From NCBI RefSeq assembly GCF_025751515.1, contig NZ_JAOWLE010000002.1:248001-312000 (forward strand): 64,000 nt of DNA, written 5' to 3'. A program made the position numbers and the translations under genes. The DNA is from Actibacterium sp. XHP0104. Lineage in GTDB: Bacteria > Pseudomonadota > Alphaproteobacteria > Rhodobacterales > Rhodobacteraceae. The notes beneath the pieces are model-generated. The model saw only the letters and a program-made list of their open reading frames with translations, ran no database searches and was not told the origin of the DNA. Below, piece by piece: positions 5,370 through 19,150 of the stretch (the stretch's first letter is position 1; every line of letters starts with the position of its first letter).

Positions 5370-6249
5370 CAGGCCAGCGCCGCGCCGCGTTCAGCAATGC
5401 ATCCAGCACCGGGGTATGCGGCTCGCGGTGGGGCGCGACCAGCCCGACCTTGTGCTGCGCCTTGGGGCCGGTCAGCGGCACTGCCGCCAGGTTGCCCGAG
5501 CGCAGGAACAGCTCTGCCGTCTGCATCGGCAGGATCGTGGCCCAGTCGCCATGCAGCACATGCGAGATCAGCGTCACGACCGAGTTCGACTCGATCCGCG
5601 GGGCGGGGCGTTCACCGCTGGAGACCGAAAGGTGGTGGTTGATGATGCGGCGGTTCTGCATGTCGGGGGTCAGCAGACACAGCGGCAGGGCTGCGGCCTC
5701 TTGCCAGCTGATGCCCGCCCGCGCGGCCAGATCAGACCCAAGCCGCACCACAAGATGATAATCCTCGTCGTAAAGCGGCACGGTGGTCACGCGGCCCAGG
5801 GGCTCGTGTTCCAGATAGGTCAGCCCGGCGTCGATCTCGAGATTGTCGAGCAGTTGCAATATCTCGGCCGAGTTGCGCGACAGGATGGTGAAATGCAGAT
5901 TGGGATGGGCCGAGGCCAGCGGCGCCGTCAGCCGCGGCAGCATCGCCAGCGCGGTGGGGATCACCGCCAGCCGCAGCCGCCCCGACAGCTTTTTCTTCAC
6001 CGCGCGCATTTCCTCGCGCATGGTGCGCGCATCGCCCACGATCTGGCGCGCCCATTGCAGGACCCGCTGGCCCTCGGGCGTCAGGCCCTGAAACCGCGAT
6101 CCGCGCCAGACCAGCATCACGCCCAGCTGTTCCTCGAGCTGCTTGATCGCCGCCGACAATGTCGGCTGGGTCACGCCGCATTCCTCGGCGGCGCGGCCGA
6201 AATGCTCTTCGTTGGCGAGGGCTATGAACATTTCCAGCTTGTCGATCAT
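5359..6249 (-). CDS. LysR-family regulator, probable activator of the formate dehydrogenase operon
   Basis: A 296-residue protein starting MIDKLEMFIALA, with the LysR winged helix-turn-helix in residues 1-60 (EEHFGRAAEECGVTQPTLS) followed by a periplasmic-binding-fold effector domain (about 90-290). LysR regulators of this type sit beside fds operons in several proteobacteria. An in-frame ATG four codons upstream (6261) is equally possible; neither has a strong ribosome site. Longer starts add low-complexity sequence and are unlikely. Its stop codon lies inside the palindrome that is its likely binding site. Formate or a related metabolite as inducer is a guess from context. Confidence 0.88.
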   Translation of the reverse strand: MIDKLEMFIALANEEHFGRAAEECGVTQPTLSAAIKQLEEQLGVMLVWRGSRFQGLTPEGQRVLQWARQIVGDARTMREEMRAVKKKLSGRLRLAVIPTALAMLPRLTAPLASAHPNLHFTILSRNSAEILQLLDNLEIDAGLTYLEHEPLGRVTTVPLYDEDYHLVVRLGSDLAARAGISWQEAAALPLCLLTPDMQNRRIINHHLSVSSGERPAPRIESNSVVTLISHVLHGDWATILPMQTAELFLRSGNLAAVPLTGPKAQHKVGLVAPHREPHTPVLDALLNAARRWPVDR

Positions 6250-6520
6250 GCGAGGGATCATGGCAGGGCCGGGGGCAGGGTGGCAATGCATGTTTTCGCC
6301 GCGACAGCTGCGGGCGGCGTGGCCCGTTTCGCGAAGCGCGCGCAATTTGATAAAACTGGTGGCGCGAATTGGAACAGCCGTGCTAGTCCATGAGTGGAAT
6401 TCGCACCAGAATCCTGCGACCCCGGTTCGCGAGGCGCTCGATATCTGTGGCATCCCGCGGGGCACGACACCTGCGACAGGGGCGAGGCTGCTTGAGGAGG
6501 GCGGCCTCGCCCGATTGTTT

Positions 6521-7663
6521 TCAGGCCACACGCAGGCCGCGGCTCCAGACGCCGCGCAGCAGGGGCGTCTGACCGGCGGTTCGCACCCGGATCACGTCAC
6601 CGCGCAGGCCGACCTCTAGCCGACCGCGATCGTTCAGCCCGGCGGCCTGGGCAGGGTTGTGCGTGACGCAGGCGACGGCGGCGGGCAGGTCGTCCCAGAT
6701 GTCGGCCAGGTGAAAGGCCGACAGCAGCAGCGCCGCCGGCACGTAATCCGACGAGATGATGTTCAGCAGACCGGCCTCGGCCAGCTCGCGCGCGGCCACA
6801 TTGCCCGAATGCGACCCGCCGCGGATCAGGTTCGGCGCCCCCATCATCACCGCCAGCCCATGCGCGCGACAGGCGGCGGCCGCCTCGCGGGTGGTCGGAA
6901 ACTCGGCAAAGCCGACGCCGTTCGCGGCCGAGGTCTGAACCTGTTCGGCGGTCGTGTCGTCATGGCTGGCCAGCACGGCCCCAAAGCGCCGCGCCTCGGC
7001 CACCGCGCCCTGTTCGTGCTGCGCGCCCAGCCGGGCCTGCAACTCTTTGAGGTTGGCGACATGTTCGGCGAATTCGGCATCCGACATGTTGCGTTTCTTG
7101 GACACATAGGTCTTGAGCGCGCTCAGATCCCTGAACTGCCGCTGGCCCGGCGTGTGATCCATCAGGCTGACGATCCCGACCCGGTCTTCGGGCCCGAACG
7201 CGGCCAGTTCCTCTAGCAGCGTTTCAGAGCAGATCTCGGCACGCAGGTGCAGGAAATGGCTGATCTTGAAATGCCCGGCCGCGCGCGCGCCAAGCAACTC
7301 GTCGGCCAGATTGCGGGCATAGGCGCCATAGCCGGCCTTGCCGGTGTGGATGGACCCCACGCGCAGCGCGTCGAAAACGGTGGTGATGCCGGTCGAGGCC
7401 AGCTCGGCATCATGGGCCAGCAGGGCGGGCAGATGCGGCCAATCGACCTTGGGGCGCGGCTCGATATGACGTTCCAGATTGTCGGTGTGCAGCTCGATCA
7501 GGCCGGGCATGACATAATCGCCCTGGCAGTCGATGGCGCCGGGGGGCACGTTGCCGTCCTCAGCGATCTCGGTAATCTGGTCGCCGGTGATGACGACCCG
7601 GCCCATCGCGATGCGATCGGGCAGCACAAGGCGGGCATTGGCGAGATGCACGACATCTGACAT
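6521..7663 (-). CDS. phnM: alpha-D-ribose 1-methylphosphonate 5-triphosphate diphosphatase PhnM
   Basis: Amidohydrolase-superfamily enzyme of the C-P lyase pathway. It removes pyrophosphate from the triphosphate made by PhnGHI(L), giving ribose 1-methylphosphonate 5-phosphate, the substrate of PhnJ. At 380 residues from MSDVVHLANA it has the usual length. Metal-site motifs are HTDNLERH (59-66), SHDDTT and GGSHSGN, with SSDY toward the C-terminus. The frame could open earlier at 7714, but that start falls inside the divergent DUF1045 gene; the MSDVV start is preferred. It is separated from phnN by DUF1045 on the other strand. Confidence 0.95.
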   Translation of the reverse strand: MSDVVHLANARLVLPDRIAMGRVVITGDQITEIAEDGNVPPGAIDCQGDYVMPGLIELHTDNLERHIEPRPKVDWPHLPALLAHDAELASTGITTVFDALRVGSIHTGKAGYGAYARNLADELLGARAAGHFKISHFLHLRAEICSETLLEELAAFGPEDRVGIVSLMDHTPGQRQFRDLSALKTYVSKKRNMSDAEFAEHVANLKELQARLGAQHEQGAVAEARRFGAVLASHDDTTAEQVQTSAANGVGFAEFPTTREAAAACRAHGLAVMMGAPNLIRGGSHSGNVAARELAEAGLLNIISSDYVPAALLLSAFHLADIWDDLPAAVACVTHNPAQAAGLNDRGRLEVGLRGDVIRVRTAGQTPLLRGVWSRGLRVA

Positions 7664-7712
7664 GGAACCGTCACGGTCCTGTGCGAGGTGGCTCGAAACG
7701 AAAGGAGAGTTC

Positions 7713-8384
7713 ATGTCATTTACCCGTTTTGCAATCTATTATCTGCCGCCGGTGGGGGCGATGGCTGATTTCGGAGCGGCGTGGCTGGGATGGGACGTGG
7801 TGTCGGGCAGGGCCGTCGATCACCCCGATGTGCCCGGTCTTGATGACGTGACGATGACACCCCGCAAATACGGGTTTCACGCCACGCTCAAGCCGCCGTT
7901 CCGGCTGGCGGATGGCACCGATCTGGCGGGGCTGAGGGCGGCCGTGGCCGGGATGGCGGCGGCTTGCGCACCGGCCAGGGCCCAGGGGCTGGGCCTGTCG
8001 CGGCTGGGCCGCTTTCTGGCGCTGACGCCGCTGGGCGACACGTCCGAGATCGCGCGGGTCGCGGCCCATTGCGTTCGGGCGATCGACGGGTTTCGCGCGC
8101 CGCCCGGCGCGGCAGAGCTGGCCCGCCGCCGGCAAAGCCCCCTGACCGACCGGCACGAGGCGCTTTTGCAGCGCTGGGGCTATCCTTACGTGATGGAGGA
8201 GTTCCGCTTTCACATGACCCTGACCGGGCGGCTGTCCGATGCCGAGATCGACCATTGGGCCCGGCAGGCCAGGGCGCATCTGCCCGCCATGCCCACGCCC
8301 TTTGTGCTGGACGAGGTCGCCTTGGTGGGCGAGCGGCCGGATGGCAGGTTCGAGCAGATCCACCGCTACGCCCTCGCCGGCTGA
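7713..8384 (+). CDS. DUF1045 phosphonate-operon protein, 2H phosphoesterase fold
   Basis: A 223-residue protein of the DUF1045 family, known from phn operons. It carries two HxT motifs, FHATLKPPF (H56, T58) and FHMTLTG (H167, T169), the signature of 2H phosphoesterases that open or close cyclic phosphates. The start has an excellent Shine-Dalgarno AAGGAG. It runs opposite to its neighbours: divergent from phnM and overlapping the 3' end of phnN by 19 bp. The family's activity is not established by anything I can see. By analogy it may hydrolyse 5-phosphoribosyl 1,2-cyclic phosphate, the step done by PhnP, which is absent here. Confidence 0.9.
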   Translation: MSFTRFAIYYLPPVGAMADFGAAWLGWDVVSGRAVDHPDVPGLDDVTMTPRKYGFHATLKPPFRLADGTDLAGLRAAVAGMAAACAPARAQGLGLSRLGRFLALTPLGDTSEIARVAAHCVRAIDGFRAPPGAAELARRRQSPLTDRHEALLQRWGYPYVMEEFRFHMTLTGRLSDAEIDHWARQARAHLPAMPTPFVLDEVALVGERPDGRFEQIHRYALAG

Positions 8385-8911
8385 AGCGCATTCAGCGCGC
8401 GGCAGACCGTATCGGCCAGGGCGCCGTCATTGGTGATGCTGACCACCTGCAAGCCCTCGGGCAGGGGCGAGCCGGCCCGCGCCAGGCGGGCGGTAATCTC
8501 GGCCACGCTTTCGCGCCCGCGCCCGGCCAGGCGCCGGGCAAGCGTTTCCGGCGATGCGGTGATGTTCAGAACGATCATGTTGGGAAACACCGTTTGCGCC
8601 TGCCCCAGCGCCCCGCGCGAGAAATTGGCAAGGCAGTCGATGCCGCGCCGGGTATCCGTCAGCACATCGGCGGGAATGCCATAGTTCAGCCCATGCGCCG
8701 ACCAGTGGACACAGAACATCCCCGCGCGGGCCGCCGCGCGAAAGGCCTCTGGCGTGACGGCGTCATGGTCCTCGCCGCCCAGGTCGCGTGCGCGGGTGAT
8801 GGTCCGGCGCACAAGGCGCAGACCGGGCAGGGCGGCCTTCAGGCCGGCCATCACGCTGTCCTTGCCCGCGCCCGAAGGGCCGACCACCGCGATCAGACGC
8901 CCCGCGCTCAT
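8366..8911 (-). CDS. phnN: ribose 1,5-bisphosphate phosphokinase PhnN
   Basis: Converts ribose 1,5-bisphosphate to PRPP with ATP, returning the sugar left by C-P lyase to nucleotide metabolism. It has 181 residues and a guanylate-kinase-like fold with P-loop GPSGAGKDS at 11-19 and the substrate-side motif RRTITRAR near residue 35-42. Its ATG overlaps the phnL stop by four bases. Its presence implies that ribose 1,5-bisphosphate is made in this cell, which requires PhnP or a substitute. Confidence 0.94.
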   Translation of the reverse strand: MSAGRLIAVVGPSGAGKDSVMAGLKAALPGLRLVRRTITRARDLGGEDHDAVTPEAFRAAARAGMFCVHWSAHGLNYGIPADVLTDTRRGIDCLANFSRGALGQAQTVFPNMIVLNITASPETLARRLAGRGRESVAEITARLARAGSPLPEGLQVVSITNDGALADTVCRALNALQPARA

Positions 8912-9591
8912 GCCGCGCGCTCCGGGGTAAAGTCGCTGACGTTGACCTCGCGGTCACAGACGCGGGCACGGGCGGCCTCGTCGTGAAAGATGCCGATAAT
9001 GGCCGCGCCCCGTGCCTTGGCAGCCTCGATCAGCCCCAGCACCACCTCGCGATTGGCCGCGTCCAGACTGGCCGTCGGCTCGTCCAGCAGCATGGCCGGA
9101 TAGGGATGGGCAAAGCCGCGCGCAATGTTGACGCGTTGCTGCTCGCCGCCCGAAAAGGTCGTCGGCGACAGCGGCCACAGCCCTTGGGGTATGTTCAGCC
9201 GGGTCAGCAGCGCCCGGGCGGTGGCACGGGCCTCGTCCTGGCCGACCCCGACCGCGCGCAGCGGTTCGGCCACCACATCCAGCGTGGGCACACGGGGCAC
9301 CACGCGCAGGAACTGGCTGACATAGCCCAGCTGGCGCCGGCGAATACGGATGATGTCGCGCGGCTCGGCCCGGGTCAGGTCGATATCGCCCACCCGGATC
9401 ACCCCGGACTGGGCGCGATAGTTGCCATAGATCATCCGCATCAGCGTCGATTTCCCCGCACCCGACGCCCCGGTCAGCGCGATACATTCGCCGGGCGCCA
9501 CGCGCAGGTTGACGCCACGAAGCACCTCGATCACCGCGCTGCCCTGGTTGTGCAGGGTGAAGGTTTTGGAAACATTGGAAAGTTCGATCAT
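8908..9591 (-). CDS. phnL: C-P lyase ABC-type ATPase PhnL
   Basis: Nucleotide-binding protein of the C-P lyase machinery, related to transporter ATPases but needed together with PhnGHI for attaching phosphonate to the ribose of ATP. Walker A GASGAGKST is at 41-49, signature SGGEQQ at 147-152 and Walker B LLDEPT at 168-173. The start MIELSNVSKTF (227 residues) aligns with the family; ten further in-frame residues upstream are not needed. Four bases separate it from phnK. Confidence 0.94.
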   Translation of the reverse strand: MIELSNVSKTFTLHNQGSAVIEVLRGVNLRVAPGECIALTGASGAGKSTLMRMIYGNYRAQSGVIRVGDIDLTRAEPRDIIRIRRRQLGYVSQFLRVVPRVPTLDVVAEPLRAVGVGQDEARATARALLTRLNIPQGLWPLSPTTFSGGEQQRVNIARGFAHPYPAMLLDEPTASLDAANREVVLGLIEAAKARGAAIIGIFHDEAARARVCDREVNVSDFTPERAA

Positions 9592-9595
9592 CGGG

Positions 9596-10366
9596 TCACA
9601 CCTGCAAAACAGAGCTGACAAGAAGCTGGGTATAGGCGTGCTGAGGGTCGTCCAGCACCTGATCGGTCAGGCCGGCCTCGACCACATGGCCCGATTTCAT
9701 CACCATCAGGCGGTCGGCAAGCAGGCGGACCACGGCCAGGTCATGGGTGACGATGATCGCCGACAGCCCCATGTCGCGCACCAGCCCGCGCAACAGGTCC
9801 AAGAGGCGGGCCTGAACGCTGACATCCAGCCCTCCGGTGGGTTCGTCCATGAAGATCAGGCGCGGCCCGGTCACCAGGTTTCGGGCGATTTGCAGACGCT
9901 GCTGCATGCCGCCGGAAAAGGTCGACGGGCGGTCGTCGATCCGGGCGGCGTCAATCTCGACCCGCGCCAGCCAGTCGGTGGCCTTGTCGCGGATATCGCC
10001 ATAATGGCGCGCCCCCACAGCCATCAGCCGTTCGCCCACATTGCCGCCCGCCGAGACCCCCATGCGCAGCCCGTCACGGGCGTGCTGATGCACAAAGGCC
10101 CAGTCGGTGCGCGAAAGCATGCGGCGCTCGGGTTCGCTCATGGTGACGGTGTCGCGCGGGCCGTCGGCGCGGGTGTCAAAGACCACGGCACCGGTATCCG
10201 GCACCAGATGCCCGGCCATGCAGTTCAGCAGGGTCGACTTGCCAGAGCCGCTTTCGCCGACGATGCCCATGACCTCGCCCGGCCACAGGTCAAAGGACAC
10301 ATCCGCACAGCCGATATGCGTGCCATAGCGCTTGCTGACGCCTTGCACCGAAAGAAGGGGGGTCAT
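9596..10366 (-). CDS. phnK: C-P lyase ABC-type ATPase PhnK
   Basis: ATPase that docks on the PhnGHIJ core complex near PhnJ. It has 256 residues, with Walker A GESGSGKST at 37-45, signature FSGGMQQR and Walker B LIFMDEPTGGLD. The start is the ATG overlapping the phnJ stop (ATGA). It resembles oligopeptide-type transporter ATPases, but the phnJ-phnK-phnL order makes the C-P lyase role secure. Confidence 0.94.
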   Translation of the reverse strand: MTPLLSVQGVSKRYGTHIGCADVSFDLWPGEVMGIVGESGSGKSTLLNCMAGHLVPDTGAVVFDTRADGPRDTVTMSEPERRMLSRTDWAFVHQHARDGLRMGVSAGGNVGERLMAVGARHYGDIRDKATDWLARVEIDAARIDDRPSTFSGGMQQRLQIARNLVTGPRLIFMDEPTGGLDVSVQARLLDLLRGLVRDMGLSAIIVTHDLAVVRLLADRLMVMKSGHVVEAGLTDQVLDDPQHAYTQLLVSSVLQV

Positions 10367-11223
10367 GCTGCATCCTTTCCGCGATGGCCCTGCGCCTGGC
10401 GGGCGTCGCAATAATCGGTGTCAGAACACACGAACATCCGGCCGCCGGCATCATCGATGATCACCTCGTCGAGATAGCTGCTGTCCGACCCGCACAGACC
10501 GCAGGGGTGATCGGCCTTGCTGGCCTCGAACGGGTGATCCTCGAAATCGAGGCTGACCACCTGCGTATAGGGCGGCAGCGCGTAAATGCGCTGTTCGCGA
10601 CCGGCGCCGAACAGCTGCACGGCGGGGCAATCGCCCAGTTTGGGATTGTCGAATTTCGGGATGGGCGAAGGGTCCATCACATAGCGCCCTTCGACCTTGA
10701 CCGGATAGGCATAGGACGTGGCGATATGGCCGTGGCGGCTGATATCCTCGTAAAGCTTGACATGCATCAGCCCGTATTCCTCGAGGCTGTGCATCTTGCG
10801 CGTCTCGCTTTCACGCGGTTCGAGAAAGCGCAGCGGTTCGGGGATCGGCACCTGATAGACCAGAACCTGGCCCTCGCGCAGCGGCAGTTCGGGAATGCGG
10901 TGGCGGGTCTGGATCACCGTCGCCTCGGCGGTGGCGGTCGTGGTCGCCACGCCCGCCGTGTGCTCAAAGAAGCTGCGGATCGACACGGCATTGGTGGTGT
11001 CATCCGCGCCCTGGTCGATCACCTTGAACCGGTCATCCGGCGTTAGCACCGCGGCCGAGACCTGCACCCCGCCCGTGCCCCAGCCATAGGGCATCGGCAT
11101 CTCGCGGCTGGCAAAGGGCACCTGATACCCCGGGATCGCCAGCCCCTTGAGAATGGCGCGGCGGATCATCCGCTTGGTCTGTTCGTCGAGATAGGCGAAG
11201 TTGTATTCCGATGTCCGTGTCAC
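10363..11223 (-). CDS. phnJ: C-P lyase catalytic subunit PhnJ (radical SAM)
   Basis: Breaks the carbon-phosphorus bond of ribose 1-methylphosphonate 5-phosphate, releasing methane (or another alkane) and a 1,2-cyclic phosphate. Key residues fall at the Escherichia coli positions: glycine G32 in IPGYQV (radical site), C241, C244 and C266 (iron-sulfur ligands) in CGLCG and FVCSD, and C272 (thiyl radical). Length is 286 residues. All catalytic residues are intact, so the enzyme should work. A 329-bp gap precedes it, unusual in this otherwise overlapping operon. Confidence 0.97.
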   Translation of the reverse strand: MTRTSEYNFAYLDEQTKRMIRRAILKGLAIPGYQVPFASREMPMPYGWGTGGVQVSAAVLTPDDRFKVIDQGADDTTNAVSIRSFFEHTAGVATTTATAEATVIQTRHRIPELPLREGQVLVYQVPIPEPLRFLEPRESETRKMHSLEEYGLMHVKLYEDISRHGHIATSYAYPVKVEGRYVMDPSPIPKFDNPKLGDCPAVQLFGAGREQRIYALPPYTQVVSLDFEDHPFEASKADHPCGLCGSDSSYLDEVIIDDAGGRMFVCSDTDYCDARQAQGHRGKDAA

Positions 11224-11552: not shown

Positions 11553-12641
11553 TCATTCCGCCGCCACCTTGCACTGGTCCGTGCCCGCGTCGCGGCGCAG
11601 CTTTCGCACCAGTTCCAGCTCGGACTGGAAATCCACGTAATGCGGCAGCTTGATGTGCTCGAGGAACCCGGTCGCCTGGATGTTGTCGGCGTGGTAGAGC
11701 ACGAACTCGGCATCCTGCGCAGGCGCGCCGACATTGTCTTCGCCCAGCTCTTGCCAGCGCAGCGCCCGGTCCACCAGGGCCATTGAAATCGCCTTGCGCT
11801 CGGTCTGACCAAAGACCAGCCCGTAACCGCGCGTGAACTGCGGCGGTTCGGTTTTCGAGCCCTTGAACTGGTTCACCGTTTCGCATTCGGTCACCGTGAT
11901 CTCGGCGATCTCGATGGCAAAACCCAGCTCGGGGATCTCGACCTCGACCGGCACGGTGCCGATCCGCAGCTCGCCCACAAAGGCGTGGTTGCGCGCATAG
12001 CCGCGCTGGGTCGAATAGGCCATGGACAGGGTAAAGCCCTCATCCGCCCGCGTCAGCGCCTGCAACCGCAGCGCCCGCCCGGCGGGCAGTTCCAGCGGCT
12101 CGCGGGTCAGGTCGGGGGGCGGGGTGTCGTCAGAGGGCGCATCCTCGATCAGCCCCTCGCGGTTGAGAAACGCCGTGACATGGGGCACGGCCTCATTGCT
12201 GGCCTCGCGCGCGGGGGCCTCGGGCAACTCGCCCTCGGCGGCCAGTTTGAAATCAAGCAGACGGTGCGTGTAATCGAAGGTCGGCCCCAGGATCTGCCCG
12301 CCCGGCAGGTCCTTGAAGGTTGCCGAAATGCGCCGGTCGCAGGCCATCGCGCCCGTATCCACCGGCGCAGAGGCGCCGAACCGGGGCAGGGTGGTGCGAT
12401 AGGCGCGGATCAGGAAGATCGCCTCGATCAGATCCCCGCGCGCCTGCTTGATCGCAAGCGCCGCCAGATCCGGATCATAGAGCGAGCCCTCGGCCATCAC
12501 CCGGTTCACCGCCAGGCTCAGCTGCTCGCGGATCTGGGCGACGGACAGTTCGGCCACCGACCGGTCGCCTCGCCGCTCTTCGGCCAGCCAGGCGTGGGCG
12601 TTGCGGATGGCGCGTTCACCGCCTTTGACTGCGACATACAT
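11553..12641 (-). CDS. phnI: C-P lyase core subunit PhnI
   Basis: Core subunit of the PhnGHIJ complex; with PhnG, PhnH and PhnL it transfers the phosphonate to the C1 of ATP ribose, displacing adenine. The start MYVAVKGGERAI is the standard N-terminus and gives 362 residues. Conserved blocks seen include LYDPDLAALAIKQARGD and the C-terminal FLEHIKLPHYVDFQ. Its ATG shares one base with the phnH stop. A longer in-frame opening upstream is the phnH coding region in another frame. Confidence 0.96.
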   Translation of the reverse strand: MYVAVKGGERAIRNAHAWLAEERRGDRSVAELSVAQIREQLSLAVNRVMAEGSLYDPDLAALAIKQARGDLIEAIFLIRAYRTTLPRFGASAPVDTGAMACDRRISATFKDLPGGQILGPTFDYTHRLLDFKLAAEGELPEAPAREASNEAVPHVTAFLNREGLIEDAPSDDTPPPDLTREPLELPAGRALRLQALTRADEGFTLSMAYSTQRGYARNHAFVGELRIGTVPVEVEIPELGFAIEIAEITVTECETVNQFKGSKTEPPQFTRGYGLVFGQTERKAISMALVDRALRWQELGEDNVGAPAQDAEFVLYHADNIQATGFLEHIKLPHYVDFQSELELVRKLRRDAGTDQCKVAAE

Positions 12642-13204
12642 CAGCGCACCTCGGTCGATCGGGGCAGCGCCGCAAGCCGGTCGCCGCTGGTGAAAATGAA
12701 GTCGAGCCCAAGCGGAAACAGCGCCCGGTTTTCCTGAAAGGCCCGCGTTTCGGGCAGCGACAGCGCCGCCTGATCGCGGATGCCCGGCCCGGTCAGGGTG
12801 GCGCCCGCGGGATGCAGGTCGGGGCATTCCACGATCAACGTGGCCGAGCGGTCGGGATAATCCGGCGTGCCCGTGGCATAGGCCGACAGCGGGCCAAGTG
12901 CCTGCCAGCTGCCCACCGCGAACATCGCCTGCGACGGGCCGACAACCGGTGCGCCAGTGTGAAATGCCAGCCAGGCACGCACGGCCTCGCAATCGGCCTC
13001 GCCGGCCAGGTGAACCGGCGTATCGCCGTCACAAAGCGTCAACAGCACGGTGCCCGCCGCAACGGAAAGGGGTGCCGGCGCCCTGGCCCCTGCGATCGGG
13101 CGGATTGTGCCTGGGCGAGCCATGGCCTCCATCACGATGCGAAAGGCATGAGAGGACTGGGTGGCCGGCTCTGAAAAACCGCCGGCAAGTCGTTCGGCCT
13201 GCAT
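12641..13204 (-). CDS. phnH: C-P lyase core subunit PhnH
   Basis: PLP-transferase-like fold subunit, without PLP, of the PhnGHIJ complex. It has 187 residues, with the family opening GGFSEPATQSSHAFRIVMEA and the internal ALTGPGI-like turn (here LTGPGI). It overlaps phnG and phnI by one base on each side. No unusual features. Confidence 0.95.
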   Translation of the reverse strand: MQAERLAGGFSEPATQSSHAFRIVMEAMARPGTIRPIAGARAPAPLSVAAGTVLLTLCDGDTPVHLAGEADCEAVRAWLAFHTGAPVVGPSQAMFAVGSWQALGPLSAYATGTPDYPDRSATLIVECPDLHPAGATLTGPGIRDQAALSLPETRAFQENRALFPLGLDFIFTSGDRLAALPRSTEVR

Positions 13205-13659
13205 CAGTCTTCCCCCCGGACCATGGTGAAAAAATCGACCTTCGTGGCGGCGGCGCGGGCGGCGCGGTGGGCCTTGTGCGCCGTGAGTTCAGCCTCGAGA
13301 GGGTCAAGAACCTGGCGCCGCAGCGCGTCGGCGGCATCGGTCTGCATCAGGGCGTCGATCAGCGCGGCCGCCTCGGCATCCGCCTTATTGCGGCCCTGAA
13401 TATAGGCATGGCCGATCTCTCCGCCGGGCAGGGTCAGCGCACAGCGCGTCACGGTGACTTCGCCGATATTGAAGGGCGCGCCCGTGCCACCGGCGCGGCC
13501 CCGCACCATGACGGTCCCCACCTCGGGGGCGCGCAGCCAGGTAAAGGCGGGGCGCTGTGTCGCCTGATCCAGCAGGGCAGCGACCCGGCCCTCTGGCGCC
13601 TTTGCCATCAGCCCCATCCAGCCTTTGCGGGGCGCGTTCTGGTCGATCATGTCTTTCAT
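13204..13659 (-). CDS. phnG: C-P lyase core subunit PhnG
   Basis: Smallest subunit of the C-P lyase core, 151 residues. Family features are RKGWMGLMAKA near the N-terminus, MVRGRAGGTGAPFNIGE in the middle and VDFFTMVRG at the C-terminus. It is the first gene of the phnGHIJKLN operon and divergent from phnF, with an 82-bp shared control region. Confidence 0.95.
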   Translation of the reverse strand: MKDMIDQNAPRKGWMGLMAKAPEGRVAALLDQATQRPAFTWLRAPEVGTVMVRGRAGGTGAPFNIGEVTVTRCALTLPGGEIGHAYIQGRNKADAEAAALIDALMQTDAADALRRQVLDPLEAELTAHKAHRAARAAATKVDFFTMVRGED

Positions 13660-13741: not shown

Positions 13742-14473
13742 TTGAGTGACAATGCGCCCACCCAACCCCTGCGCACCCCGGTCTGGCAGGCCATCGCAAC
13801 GACCCTGCGCGCCGAGATATCCGAGGGCCGATACCTGCCCGGTGACCGGCTGCCGACCGAGGCGCAGATGGCGGCCCGCTTTGGTGTCAATCGCCATACG
13901 GTGCGCCATGCGCTCTCGGCCCTGATCGACGACGGGCTGGTGCGCACACGGCGCGGGGCCGGCGCCTTTGTCGCCGCGCGGCCCACGGATTACCCGATCG
14001 GCGCGCGGGTGCGGTTTCACGAAAACCTGCTGGCGGCGGGCCGAAAGCCCGAAAAGCGCCGCCTGAGTATCGAATGCCGGGCCGCAACCCCGGGCGAGGC
14101 GCGGGCCTTGTCGATCGCGCCGGGTGACCCCGTCTGCGCCTATCACGGGCTGTCACTGGCCGACGGGTCGCCGATCGCCGTGTTCGAGAGCGTCTTTCCC
14201 CTGGACCGCACGCCCCGGATCGACGGGTTCCTGGCCGAGACCAGCAGCGTGACCGAGGCGCTGGCCCGCGCCGGGCTGGCGGATTACACCCGCGCCTCGA
14301 CCCGCCTGACGGCGGTCAGGGCCGATGTCACCCAGGCCCTGCATCTGCATCTGCGCGAGGGCGACCCGCTGTTGCGCTCTACCGGGGTCAATGTCGACAT
14401 GGGCGGTCATCCGGTCGAATACGGGCGGACCTGGTTCGCAGGCGACAGGGTGACCCTGACGCTAGAGATGTGA
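13742..14473 (+). CDS. phnF: PhnF, GntR/HutC-family regulator of phosphonate metabolism
   Basis: A 243-residue transcription factor. The N-terminal winged helix (about 12-78) holds ISEGRYLPGDRLPTEAQ and FGVNRHTVRHAL, and a C-terminal UTRA ligand-binding domain covers about 95-240. The reading frame begins with TTG; a GTG three codons earlier is followed at once by a stop, and the next ATG would cut into the helix-turn-helix, so TTG is the likely start. Divergent from phnG. In known cases PhnF represses phn genes. Confidence 0.92.
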   Translation: MSDNAPTQPLRTPVWQAIATTLRAEISEGRYLPGDRLPTEAQMAARFGVNRHTVRHALSALIDDGLVRTRRGAGAFVAARPTDYPIGARVRFHENLLAAGRKPEKRRLSIECRAATPGEARALSIAPGDPVCAYHGLSLADGSPIAVFESVFPLDRTPRIDGFLAETSSVTEALARAGLADYTRASTRLTAVRADVTQALHLHLREGDPLLRSTGVNVDMGGHPVEYGRTWFAGDRVTLTLEM

Positions 14474-14483
14474 CCCCCCGGAG

Positions 14484-15101
14484 CTATCGCTCATAGCGAT
14501 CGAGAAAGGCCCCGGCGCTGAGGCTGCGGAAATCGTCGAGCGCCGCGCGCAGCGCGTCATGCGGCCAGTCCCACCAGGCAAGCCGGATCATTCGCTCGGC
14601 GATCTCGGGCGGCTGGCGATCGCGCAGCGGGCGCGCCGGGTTGCCCGCGACGATGGTGTAGGGCGCCACGTCCTTTGTCACCACCGCCCCCGAGGCAACC
14701 ACCACCCCGTGGCCAAGGGTGATGCCGGGTTTGATCATCGCGGCATGCCCGATCCAGGTGTCGTGGCCGATATGGGCGCGGCGGGCCTTGCGGCGCGCGA
14801 AAAAGGCATCGTCGGCCTCGGCATCATCCCAGTAATATTCGGAACGATAGAGAAAATGGTGGCAAGACGCGGTCTCGAGCGGGTGATCGGTGGCCCCGAT
14901 CCGCACATGGCTGGCGATATTGGAGAACTTGCCGATGCTGGCATTGGCGATATCGGCGTAGCGGTCGCAATAGCTGTAATCATCGACCGAGCTATGCGCG
15001 ATCCGGCTGCCTGCGCCGATCTCGCAATAGGTGCCGAACTGGCTGTCGGTGATGGTGCAGCCGTCATGGATGAACGGGGTATCGGGGGACAGGCGCGGCA
15101 T
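14484..15101 (-). CDS. phosphonate-cluster hexapeptide-repeat acyltransferase
   Basis: A 205-residue left-handed beta-helix acetyltransferase of the chloramphenicol-acetyltransferase/DapH-like type found in phn operons. Hexapeptide repeats run through residues 15-65 and 110-160 ([32 protein letters not shown]). It is the last gene of the phnCDE operon, one base after phnE2. It may acetylate aminophosphonates, the role PhnO has in other clusters, but PhnO belongs to a different (GNAT) family and the substrate is not known from the sequence. Confidence 0.9.
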
Positions 15102-15102
15102 C

Positions 15103-16416
15103 TTAATCTTTGCGCCCGATAAGCTTGCCGCGCAGCCAGCCCGAGAAGCTGTCCATGGCCATCACCACGCCGACGATCAGGATGATGTAATAGACCACCT
15201 CTTCCCAATCCTTTTGGGTCTGGATCGCCTGTGTCAGCAACAGGCCGATCCCGCCGCCGGTGATGGCGCCGATGATGGTGGCCGAGCGGGTGTTGGATTC
15301 GAGGAAATAGAGGATCTGCGCCAGCAGGATCGGCACGACCTGCGGGATCACGCCAAAGCGATAGCGCTGCAACGGCTTGGCGCCGGTCGAGGCCACGCCC
15401 TCGATCTGCTTTGCATCGACATTTTCCAGCGCCTCGGAGAAGATTTTGCCAAATGTGCCGGTATCGGTGATCAGGATCGCCAGCGCCCCGGTCAGGGGCC
15501 CCGGGCCAAAGGCGCGCGACAGGACCACCGTCCAGATCAGTGCATCCACCCCGCGCAGAAAGTCGAACAGCCGGCGCGAGGCGGCCCGGATGATCATCAC
15601 CGGGGCAAACCGCCTGGCCGCCATGAAGGCCAGCGGCAGCGCGACCAGTGCCGCGCCCATCGTGCCCAAAAAGGCCATCAGGATCGTCTCGCCGATGGCC
15701 CAGACCACGTTCTTGTGCAGCCACATCGGATTGTTCCACCAGTCCGACACGGCCCCCACGATATTGGCGCGCGCGGGGTCGATGCGCGGGCCGAACACGA
15801 TCTCGGTCAGGCCATGGCCGTAATAGGGGCTGTCGAAGGTGAACCAGAACAGCTCCCACCCCGGGAAATAGTTGAACACTTCGGTCTTTGAGCCGGTGAT
15901 GGCCACCCGGCCCTCGGGCAGTGTGATCGCCACGCGGCGGTCCGAGGCGTTGATCCAGTCGGGAATGTCGGCGGGCAGGTTGCTGGTGATCTGGCGGCCG
16001 TTGGCCTGCGCCTCGATCATGCCGAAACCCGGAATGTCGATCTCTGTGCGCCGGTCGGGCAAGAGCCTGACAAAGGTGTCGCCGCCAAGGTCGACGGTGA
16101 TGATGTCGTCGCCGGTGACCCAGTCGGGGCGCTGGCCTTCGGGATAGGCGCCTTTGCGTTCCCCCTCGATCACGACATCGGTCTCGCCGGTGCGGTTGTC
16201 GCGCGTCACATGGGTCTTGTACGACCAACTGTCCGAGGCCAGCGTCACCGCGTTATCCCAGTTCGCGCGCTTGATCAGGCCCGGAATGTCGAAAGCGAAG
16301 AAGATATAGACGAAATAGGCCAGAACCAGCGCGGGCAGGGCAAAGGCAAAGATCCGCTTGCGCCGGAAAAGCGCATCCGCGTCAGATTTCATCTGGCTCA
16401 GCTCGGCGGTGCTCAT
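15103..16416 (-). CDS. phnE: phosphonate ABC transporter permease PhnE2
   Basis: Second permease of the phosphonate importer, 437 residues. A first hydrophobic helix (about 21-45) is followed by a large periplasmic insertion (about 50-185). A BPD_transp_1 core of five to six helices then carries the coupling loop [18 protein letters not shown] near residue 315-333. The large insertion is common in the second PhnE of alphaproteobacteria. The ATG overlaps the phnE1 stop (ATGA). Confidence 0.94.
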
Positions 16417-17294
16417 TTGGCATGCCCCTCGGTCAGACGGTTGCGATAGCGGCTCGAGACCTGGTCAAACAGGACGATCGTGCCGAAAAGCAGGAGAAAG
16501 ATCGCCGCCGCCTCGTCGAACCGGCCCAGGCCCCAGGACATGGAATTGCGCAGCTCGTAGCCCAGGCCGCCGGCGCCCACAAAGCCCAGAATGGCCGAGG
16601 CGCGGATGTTGATCTCAAAGCGCAGCAGGCTGTAGCTGATATAGTTGGGCGCCACTTGCGGCAGGACGCCCAGCCACATCTTTTGCGCCCAGGTGGCCCC
16701 GGTAGAGGTCAGCCCCTCGACCGGCTTGAGATCGGCATTCTCGGCCACCTCGGAATACATCTTGCCCAGGGCGCCGGCCGTATGGATGGCAATGGCGATC
16801 ATGGCGGGCACCGGGCCGCCGCCCAGCACGAAGATCAGCACCAGCGCGATCACGATTTCGGGCATGGCGCGCATGATATCCATCAGTCGCCGAAAGAGCG
16901 GGGTCAGACGCGGCCAGCGCGCCAGCCCGCGGGTCGACAGCAGCGACAGCACCAGCCCCGCCCCCGCACCCACAAGGGTGGAAACGGCCGCGATATTGAC
17001 CGTTTCGATCAGCGCGGGCAGGAACCTGACGATCAGCGCGGGCAGATTGGCCCGGTTCGCCCAGGCCTCGGCCAGAACCTCGCCCGGGTAATCGCCCAGC
17101 TGGTTCAGCCCGTCCCAAAAGCCACCCGCATTGCGGCTGTCGGCGACCGTAAAGCCCGAGACCATCAGGATGACAAAGATCATCAGTGTCAGCCCGCCAT
17201 ACAGCCGGCGGCGCTGTACCTGCGCCATGTAATCGGCACGTATGCCTTCGACGGTGTGCCCGGCCGGTGTCGCGCCGAATGTCGCGTCAGTCAT
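16413..17294 (-). CDS. phnE: phosphonate ABC transporter permease PhnE1
   Basis: First permease of the phosphonate importer, 293 residues from MTDATFGATPAGHT. About six membrane helices, with the first at residues 32-50 and the coupling loop SEVAENADLKPVEGLTSTG. The start is chosen 20 bp after the hairpin that follows phnD; the ribosome site GGAGG is well placed. It pairs with PhnE2 as a heterodimeric channel. Confidence 0.94.
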   Translation of the reverse strand: MTDATFGATPAGHTVEGIRADYMAQVQRRRLYGGLTLMIFVILMVSGFTVADSRNAGGFWDGLNQLGDYPGEVLAEAWANRANLPALIVRFLPALIETVNIAAVSTLVGAGAGLVLSLLSTRGLARWPRLTPLFRRLMDIMRAMPEIVIALVLIFVLGGGPVPAMIAIAIHTAGALGKMYSEVAENADLKPVEGLTSTGATWAQKMWLGVLPQVAPNYISYSLLRFEINIRASAILGFVGAGGLGYELRNSMSWGLGRFDEAAAIFLLLFGTIVLFDQVSSRYRNRLTEGHAK

Positions 17295-17313
17295 CTGCTG
17301 CCTCCAATAGAAA

Positions 17314-17340
17314 TCGGCAGCCCGTTGAAGGGGCTGCCGA
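17314..17340 (-). other. intercistronic stem-loop between phnD and phnE1
   Basis: A perfect 10-bp stem (TCGGCAGCCC / GGGCTGCCGA) with a 7-base loop. It has only a weak T-rich tail on the minus strand before the phnE1 ribosome site. Such hairpins after binding-protein genes usually stabilise upstream mRNA or attenuate readthrough, so PhnD is made in excess over the permeases. Not a full intrinsic terminator. Confidence 0.7.
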
Positions 17341-17356
17341 CAATGTGTGGATCGGA

Positions 17357-18268
17357 TCAGCTGCCGATCTTGGCCTTGCGGGCCTCGACGATCGAGATAT
17401 AGGCCTCGTGGGTGATCGGGTCGAAACCGCGCACCTCGCCACCGGCCACGCCGTAGGCGCATTCGGGGTCGGTCTCGCCGAGGGTGTCCAGCACTTCGGT
17501 CACCTTGGCGCGCACGTCGGCGGGCAGCGCGTTGCGCACCACGATCGGCTCGCCGGGGATCAGCTTCGAGCGCCAGATCTCGACCAGATCGTTCATGTCG
17601 ACCAGACCGGCATCCACCGCCTTGCGCAGGGCGCCAAAGTTGTAGCCGTCTTCCCAGTTGCCCTGGCCATCGGCCCAGGTGACGCCGGCATCGATATCGC
17701 CGTTGCTGACCGCGATGATGGTCTGCTCGTGGCCGCCGGTAAAGCGGACCTCGCCGAAATAGTCACCCGATTCCATCGAGGCGCCGGTGATCTGGGGAAT
17801 CTCGATCGAGGGGATCAGGTAGCCCGAGGTCGAGTTGGGATCGCCAAAGCCAAAGACCTTGCCCTTGACATCTTCGAGCTTGGTCAGGCCGCTGTCGACA
17901 CGGGCGAAACCGATCGAGTAATAGCCGATCGAGCCGTCGGTGTTGACCTTGACCACCACCGGCGACACCGCGTTCGGGTCGGCGATATGCACGGCGGCAT
18001 AGCCCGACGGGCCCAGCAGCGCCAGGTCGAGGGTGCCGCCCAGAAGGCCCTGAATGACACCGTTGTAATCGGCCGGGGCATACAGTTTGACCGGAACGTG
18101 CAGCGTCTCGGTGATCTTGTCGGCCAGGCATTCGTTGTTGTTCAGACGGTCCTGGGCGTTCTCGCCACCAAGAATGCCTATGCGGAATTCGGTGATCTTT
18201 TCTTCGGCAAAAGCAGCCGAGCAAAGGGCGGTCGAGGCAGCCAGGGCCAGCGCAATGGTCTTTTTCAT
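17357..18268 (-). CDS. phnD: phosphonate-binding periplasmic protein PhnD
   Basis: Solute-binding protein for 2-aminoethylphosphonate and other phosphonates, 303 residues. A Sec signal peptide covers 1-21 (MKKTIALALAASTALCSAAFA, cleaved before EEK). Family motifs are LALLGPSGYAAVH and FGFGDPNSTSGYLIP, the second forming part of the phosphonate pocket. It is the second gene of phnCDE1E2, 60 bp after phnC, and is followed by a strong hairpin. Confidence 0.95.
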   Translation of the reverse strand: MKKTIALALAASTALCSAAFAEEKITEFRIGILGGENAQDRLNNNECLADKITETLHVPVKLYAPADYNGVIQGLLGGTLDLALLGPSGYAAVHIADPNAVSPVVVKVNTDGSIGYYSIGFARVDSGLTKLEDVKGKVFGFGDPNSTSGYLIPSIEIPQITGASMESGDYFGEVRFTGGHEQTIIAVSNGDIDAGVTWADGQGNWEDGYNFGALRKAVDAGLVDMNDLVEIWRSKLIPGEPIVVRNALPADVRAKVTEVLDTLGETDPECAYGVAGGEVRGFDPITHEAYISIVEARKAKIGS

Positions 18269-18328: not shown

Positions 18329-19150
18329 TCAGACAAGCGCAACGGCCGGGGCCGCCTTGTGCGGTTGCCTGTCCAGCATCTCGATGGCGGTGGATGTGGC
18401 CGCTTCGGAAAAGTCGGCCCCCGCGCCATAGATGTCTCGGGCGACGCCGGTGGTCAGCTGCTCGGGCGTGCCATCGAAAACGATGCGCCCGTCGCGCATC
18501 CCGATCACGCGGTCGCAATAGCGCCGCGCGGTATCAAGCGTGTGCAGGTTCGCGATGACCATGCGTCCGTCTTCCTCGTGGATGCGGCGCAGGGCCTCCA
18601 TCACGATCTGGGCGTTCATCGGGTCAAGCGAGGCAATGGGTTCGTCCGCAAGAATGATGCTTGGGTCTTGCATCAGCGCGCGGGCAATCGCGACGCGCTG
18701 CTGCTGCCCGCCGGAAAGCGCCTCGGCGCGTTTGGGCGCCTGCTCGGCGATGCCCAGCCGGTCAAGGATCTCGATCGCCTTGTGAATGTCATCCTGCGGG
18801 TAGAGGTTGAACATCGTCGCCAGCGTCGAGCGGCGGTTCAGCGTGCCATGCAGCACGTTCGATACCACATCCATGCGGGGAACCAGGTTGAACTGTTGAA
18901 AGATCATCGCACAGCGCGACTGCCATTGCCGCCGCTGCCGGCCACGCAGCGCCGTGACCTCTGTTCCCTCGAACCAGATCTCGCCCTCGCTGGCATCACT
19001 GAGACGGTTCAGCATCCGCAGCAGCGTCGACTTGCCCGCGCCCGAGCGACCGATGATGCCGATCATCTTGGGCCTGTCGACCGAGAAGCTTGCATTTCCG
19101 ACGGCGATGTTCTCGCCAAAGCGCTTTGTCAAAGCCTTCACTTCAAGCAT
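18329..19150 (-). CDS. phnC: phosphonate ABC transporter ATPase PhnC
   Basis: ATPase of the phosphonate importer, 273 residues. Walker [10 protein letters not shown] is at 34-42, signature LSGGQQQR follows about residue 145, and Walker B is [11 protein letters not shown]. The C-terminus carries an extra 25-30 residues rich in Ala and Thr. First gene of the phnCDE1E2 operon. Possible Pho-box half-sites lie 50-70 bp upstream. Confidence 0.95.

Follow-up and report, generated by a model that had tools for sequence, protein, structure and literature searches.

Which enzyme links PhnJ to PhnN in a C-P lyase pathway that has no PhnP is the question raised by the phn cluster of Actibacterium sp. XHP0104, which lies in the 64,000-nucleotide stretch of DNA analysed here (the window). 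A preliminary description of the locus, made from the letters alone, held that PhnJ and PhnN are intact, that PhnP is missing from the cluster, and that a DUF1045 protein with two HxT motifs stands in its place as a possible non-homologous substitute. The genome is 2.69 Mb in size and 99.7% complete. Its C-P lyase cluster is complete, with the DUF1045 gene between phnM and phnN, and the family scores of PhnJ and PhnN agree with the description (Table 1). No protein scoring over the cut-off of the PhnP model (TIGR03307, 272.25 bits) was found by profile search, either in the cluster or in the whole genome, so that the description also holds on this point.

Table 1. Features of the phn cluster in the window.
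Feature	Position	Strand	Evidence
phnM	6521–7663	−	NF011984, 544.7 bits; TIGR02318, 437.7 bits
DUF1045 (PF06299) 2H phosphoesterase, candidate 5-phosphoribosyl 1,2-cyclic phosphate phosphodiesterase	7713–8384	+	PF06299; TIGR03223; AF2 model; PDB folds
First HxT motif, H56-A57-T58 (HAT)	7878–7886	+	H56 and T58 in 170/170 aligned copies
Second HxT motif, H167-M168-T169 (HMT)	8211–8219	+	H167 in 167/167 copies reaching the column
phnN, ribose 1,5-bisphosphate kinase	8366–8911	−	TIGR02322, 180.8 bits (cut-off 156)
phnL	8908–9621	−	TIGR02324, 313.6 bits
phnK	9596–10411	−	TIGR02323, 394.9 bits
phnJ, C-P lyase	10363–11223	−	PF06007, 477 bits
phnI	11553–12641	−	PF05861, 547.7 bits
phnH	12641–13204	−	TIGR03292, 161.1 bits; PF05845, 194.9 bits
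phnG	13204–13659	−	TIGR03293, 173.9 bits
phnF regulator	13742–14473	+	TIGR02325, 216.5 bits
Hexapeptide-repeat transferase of phn clusters	14484–15101	−	TIGR03308, 299.7 bits
Two phnE permeases	15103–16416, 16413–17462 (15103–17462)	−	TIGR01097, 222.4 and 242.3 bits
phnD	17357–18268	−	TIGR03431, 312.1 bits
phnC	18329–19150	−	TIGR02315, 320.2 bits

On the minus strand, the genes follow one another as phnG, phnH, phnI, phnJ, phnK, phnL, phnN and, past DUF1045, phnM. The phnF gene is on the plus strand, and phnC, phnD, both phnE and the hexapeptide transferase gene lie on its far side. The DUF1045 gene has the opposite orientation to its two neighbours: it diverges from phnM and converges with phnN, sharing 19 bp with the 3′ end of the latter. 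With the phnM start placed at the methionine closest to the start of the family model, 49 bp separate the starts of phnM and DUF1045, and phnM must be reached either through DUF1045 or from this gap. A search with a Pho-box consensus was uninformative, as it returned 11 matches in 16 kb when up to 4 mismatches were allowed. Out of 331 DUF1045 relatives found, 80 named loci were kept (L023–L102); the same order and orientations of phnM, DUF1045 and phnN occur in 69 of them, and all but 3 of these 69 (66 loci) also have an overlap of exactly 19 bp. In the remaining 11 loci, some of which are short pieces, at least one of the two neighbours was not found. Five loci (L039, L068, L081, L091 and L098) extend about 10 kb on each side and have neither phnM nor phnN adjoining DUF1045.

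The DUF1045 open reading frame encodes 223 residues and is a real gene by its family score. The protein matches PF06299 over residues 58–213 with 182.3 bits (gathering threshold 24.3). It also aligns with positions 2–227 of the 228 of TIGR03223 (Phn_opern_protn, 'putative phosphonate metabolism protein'); the score of 243 bits is 6 bits short of the curated cut-off of 248.95, and the protein is therefore named a DUF1045 protein here and not formally a member of TIGR03223. This was the only family returned by the NCBIfam scan, in which PhnP gave no match. The genome holds one copy, and its closest named relatives are found in Rhodobacteraceae, for example in Marivita, with 70–75% identity.

The two HxT motifs of the preliminary description were found at residues 56 and 167. 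Their conservation was examined in an alignment of the window protein with 169 other copies, of which 3 are truncated before the H167 column. Both histidines are invariant in complete copies, and T169 is a threonine in 163 copies and a serine in 4. The protein thus has the two HxT/S motifs that mark the 2H phosphoesterase superfamily. Residues R5, Y53, K60, P62, R128, R139, G156 and Y157 are also strongly conserved. Residue 148 (8154–8156 of the window) is a histidine in the window protein and a glutamine in 108 of 117 phn-linked copies.

Sequence searches returned no solved structure at a convincing E-value. An AF2 model built with 105 sequences has a pLDDT of 97.3 and a pTM of 0.92. Its best matches in the PDB (VIA) are 2H phosphoesterases, namely YjcG (Z 15.4), the Arabidopsis cyclic phosphodiesterase CPDase (1jh6, Z 13.4), LigT (Z 13.1) and Usb1 (Z 12.3), and Foldseek matched it to 2d4g with an E-value of 2.4e-8. 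The protein is thus predicted to adopt the 2H fold, which by itself does not prove the substrate.

The sole genome-wide match to the PhnP model is a metallo-beta-lactamase (MBL) with 57 bits, whose gene follows others resembling holB and tatD. The preliminary description had proposed to look for phnP in the rest of the genome, and a hidden copy was rejected on this ground.

The distribution of the two families was surveyed in genomes that encode PhnJ. Among 387 genomes of the class of the window, Alphaproteobacteria, PhnJ occurs in 74 and DUF1045 in 91 (89 over the cut-off). Both are present in 72, PhnJ without DUF1045 in 2 and DUF1045 without PhnJ in 19. DUF1045 is therefore found in 72 of 74 genomes with PhnJ, as against 19 of 313 without (2 of the 19 below the cut-off), which gives an odds ratio of 557 (Fisher p 1.5e-57, uncorrected for phylogeny). 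The 72 include a distant 50-bit match on a contig other than that of phnJ (G216) and a partial match at a contig end (G376). PhnP over the cut-off was found in none of the 74 genomes, the best score being 94 bits.

A sample of the phylum (396 genomes) yielded 109 genomes with PhnJ, 108 of them over the cut-off. Thirteen had already been tested and one was below the cut-off; of the 95 left, 80 were tested. These comprised every genome from outside the class (33) and 47 from inside it, where a further 15 were left out. DUF1045 is present in 52 of the 80 (47/47 inside the class and 5/33 outside); PhnP scores over the cut-off in 26, none of which belongs to the class. No genome has both, and 2 have neither. 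One family outside the class holds both states and was sampled more deeply. PhnJ was found in 13 of 150 genomes, 11 of which were new; 10 of these encode DUF1045, 1 encodes PhnP and none encodes both. Overall, DUF1045 occurs in 12 and PhnP in 2 of the 14 PhnJ genomes of this family, again without overlap.

Taken together, 165 PhnJ genomes of a single phylum, 121 of them alphaproteobacterial, were searched for both families. DUF1045 alone was found in 134, PhnP over the cut-off alone in 27, both in none and neither in 4, and the anti-correlation that the preliminary description had suggested looking for is thus observed. Among the 121 alphaproteobacterial genomes, 119 have DUF1045 and none has PhnP over the cut-off. 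That the exclusion merely separates Alphaproteobacteria from the rest was considered and rejected, as the 44 PhnJ genomes outside the class comprise 15 with DUF1045, 27 with PhnP, 2 with neither and none with both. The hypergeometric probability of no overlap among these genomes is 5.9e-10, ignoring relatedness.

A quick maximum-likelihood tree, built from the concatenated PhnI and PhnJ sequences of 83 chosen clusters, served to estimate the number of exchanges; 2 further chosen loci lacked the genes. The count of state changes leaves out 8 rows with neither DUF1045 nor PhnP in the fetched cluster. At least two changes between DUF1045 and PhnP are required, and two switches suffice. The PhnP clusters form two separate groups, one of which is placed among DUF1045 clusters. 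The swap is therefore recurrent, but it does not amount to 165 independent events; the large counts reflect inheritance and the exclusion rests on few evolutionary events. One genome in the set (G784, loci L195 and L196) carries two phn clusters about 32 kb apart, with PhnP in each and identical rows of PhnI and PhnJ.

Of the 72 class genomes with both genes, 56 have DUF1045 no more than 15 kb from phnJ. In the 16 others it is far off on the same contig (2 genomes) or on another contig (14 genomes). Its place in the gene order shifts repeatedly: it may follow phnM or phnN, separate phnL from phnN or adjoin phnF, and it occurs on either strand. Several of the copies distant from phnJ adjoin a phnM or phnN homologue (L163, L164, L167, L170, L172, L174–L176), and others stand alone. 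Five sampled genomes, belonging to the family of the window and to another family of its class, have a second, divergent C-P lyase cluster (L109, L112, L114, L115 and L117). The PhnJ of these clusters scores 379–397 bits, compared with 451–507 in most others, and the clusters form a group of their own in the tree of PhnI and PhnJ. Two of them contain a DUF1045 copy, intact in L109 and fragmented in L115.

The copies from genomes without PhnJ do not form a separate clade. The 16 that were aligned keep the conserved residues, which indicates that DUF1045 may have another substrate too. A search for recurrent partners covered 14 of the 19 genomes without PhnJ (L003, L004, L006, L007, L009–L016, L018, L019) and four loci with DUF1045 distant from phnJ (L113, L119–L121). 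It returned phnM in 4 loci; other neighbour groups are common to few loci, several being shared by the pair L009/L013 and an NDUS4-like gene by L007/L011. In L006, L009, L012 and L013, all from genomes without phnJ, phnM adjoins DUF1045, and two of these loci also have phnF. Such pairs may be residual cassettes or part of a different pathway. A distant DUF1045 relative of 205 residues is encoded directly after a Gate protein (PF07670, nucleoside recognition) in L017 (8618–9235) and L022 (8677–9294), in 1.4-Mb genomes with or without phnJ.

Four PhnJ genomes have neither gene. In L104, phnN and phnC are separated by a repeat-like sequence of about 490 bp (5930–6416) without similarity to PhnP; the congener L183 has phnP at this place. 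In L103, the 5′ part of phnN is in another frame and the fetched stretch holds no phnP. The assembly of L105 is 91% complete, and in its three sampled congeners DUF1045 and phnJ are on different contigs. L020 comes from a 1.6-Mb genome with phnG to phnM and with neither DUF1045 nor PhnP over the cut-off genome-wide; phnN was not found by BLAST in the fetched stretch. A calcineurin-like phosphoesterase is encoded directly upstream of phnG in this locus (7160–8011) and is a possible third solution. According to a review, Trichodesmium can use methylphosphonate for growth although it lacks PhnN, PhnO and PhnP (PMC10574752). Together with the four genomes, this indicates that other ways through the step exist.

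The preliminary description had presented a substitute for PhnP as a discovery if not already shown. Here it must be corrected, as the replacement is a known proposal, already in print (PMC3840354, PMC8235418, PMC10574752) and backed by published in vivo work on a cluster as a whole. Martinez et al. (2013) wrote that a 2H protein termed RcsF likely plays the role of PhnP (PMC3840354). A Rhodobacteraceae fosmid that contains rcsF and lacks phnP complemented E. coli deleted for phnHIJKLMNOP on methylphosphonate, and also on ethylphosphonate, 2-aminoethylphosphonate, 3-phosphonopropionate and 3-aminopropylphosphonate, according to the same report; the effect could come from a different gene of the insert. 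Mutation of phnP in E. coli is described as causing ribosyl 1,2-cyclic phosphate to accumulate and as leaving phosphonate phosphorus unusable (PMC3463581). The review cited above, with reference to Podzelinska 2009, counts 54 operons, of which 27 have phnP, and gives rcsF for 16 that lack it (PMC10574752). DUF1045 was itself proposed to be a phosphoribosyl cyclic phosphodiesterase, as reported in PMC8235418, and it appears with PhnI, PhnJ, PhnL and PhnM in a phosphate-stress table for Phaeobacter (PMC10132767). An enzyme assay of DUF1045 or RcsF on 5-phosphoribosyl 1,2-cyclic phosphate was not found among the matches listed by a search that subscription journals mostly lay outside. The gene order phnM-rcsF-phnNL and the 2H assignment suggest that RcsF and DUF1045 are one family, and the window protein is probably what some papers call RcsF. 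What is new here is the survey, which extends the replacement proposal from operons to whole genomes.

The exclusion of PhnP, the tracking of PhnJ, the linkage to the phn genes, the conserved active site, the predicted fold and the rescue by a fosmid without phnP all point the same way. The window DUF1045 protein is very probably a 2H phosphodiesterase that does the job of PhnP in the C-P lyase pathway, as the preliminary description had suggested. PhnJ would leave 5-phospho-α-D-ribosyl 1,2-cyclic phosphate, which we infer to be the exact substrate of DUF1045. The pairs H56/T58 and H167/T169 would both hold the cyclic phosphate in place and serve in general acid and base catalysis, and water would open the ring on the O2 side to give α-D-ribose 1,5-bisphosphate, which PhnN would phosphorylate to PRPP. 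By analogy with 2H cyclic phosphodiesterases, this regiochemistry and these residue roles are the expected ones, and no metal should be needed.

It is improbable that DUF1045 acts in phosphonate catabolism on some other cyclic or phosphodiester compound, such as dephosphorylated ribosyl 1,2-cyclic phosphate or a side product, instead of at the step of PhnP. The varied substrates of 2H enzymes would suit such a role, as would the copies in genomes without PhnJ, four of them beside phnM, but the step after PhnJ would then be left without a known enzyme in 134 of the 165 genomes, and growth of a phnP-deleted host was supported by the fosmid without phnP. Still less probable is hydrolysis of the cyclic phosphate by the tatD-linked housekeeping MBL, as a distant relative of PhnP, with DUF1045 doing something else. 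This MBL scores 57–59 bits with the PhnP model, weak matches to which occur in all 74 of the class genomes searched, and PhnP is structurally the nearest protein (1.7 Å) to a crystallised Brucella relative, encoded in a metG-tatD neighbourhood and suggested to be a nucleotide hydrolase (PMC3169410). The best NCBIfam match of the MBL is, however, another MBL family (NF038231, 249.8 bits, under the cut-off of 360 of that family). Of 14 control genomes, 11 also gave matches to the PhnP model, 1 of them over the cut-off, although PhnJ is present only in E. coli, so that weak matches do not track C-P lyase. An active MBL would moreover leave unexplained why DUF1045 tracks PhnJ and excludes PhnP.

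A neighbourhood due to chance or hitchhiking, with no role of DUF1045 in the C-P lyase pathway, is scarcely credible. It would fit with the 16 class genomes, out of 72 with both, in which DUF1045 is away from phnJ, and with several of the 80 named loci (e.g. L039, L068, L081 and L098), where no adjoining phnM or phnN was found. Against this stand the association with PhnJ (odds ratio 557, p 1.5e-57, phylogeny uncorrected) and the persistence of DUF1045 in the cluster through many rearrangements.

A broader version of the replacement reading combines several statements: DUF1045 would be a non-homologous, isofunctional and metal-free replacement of PhnP, exchanged at least twice, usual in Alphaproteobacteria and some other families, with an extra role on ribose 1,2-cyclic phosphates outside the C-P lyase pathway. 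The extra role would account for the presence of intact copies where phnJ is missing. The combination as a whole is tentative and rather unlikely to be correct in every part. If it is true, a metal-free DUF1045 would be an advantage in metal-poor sea water. As 119 of 121 alphaproteobacterial C-P lyase genomes have DUF1045 and none has a PhnP over the cut-off of the E. coli-type family, gene catalogues in which phnP marks a complete pathway will overlook these genomes. Estimates of methylphosphonate use and of marine methane release are affected by such gaps.

The structural relatives of the window protein share its predicted fold with little sequence identity. B. subtilis YjcG and E. coli LigT have the 2H fold and are 16% and 13% identical to it, respectively. 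E. coli has LigT (PMC5283653) and its phnP mutant nevertheless fails on phosphonate phosphorus, so that a 2H fold is not enough. The Arabidopsis CPDase (1fsi/1jh6) superimposes with an r.m.s.d. of 3.9 over 169 residues, with 14% identity; enzymes of the Arabidopsis and yeast type open ribose 1″,2″-cyclic phosphate to the 1″-phosphate. E. coli PhnP (TIGR03307) has the same proposed reaction and place in the pathway as DUF1045, and the two are mutually exclusive. PhnP is described as containing metal ions and as structurally close to a protein with the metallo-beta-lactamase fold (PMC3169410), whereas DUF1045 has a predicted 2H fold with two HxT motifs. The proposed substitution is an easily assayed case of one reaction with two unrelated enzyme folds. 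The closest known systems are the C-P lyase clusters with RcsF/DUF1045. The window protein scores just under the TIGR03223 cut-off, and the RcsF of the Rhodobacteraceae fosmid B3_TF_MPn_2 is likened to it by description: it is described as a 2H protein in a cluster without phnP, as in the window. In Roseovarius, phnM, rcsF and phnNL are found together (PMC5649143), again as in the window.
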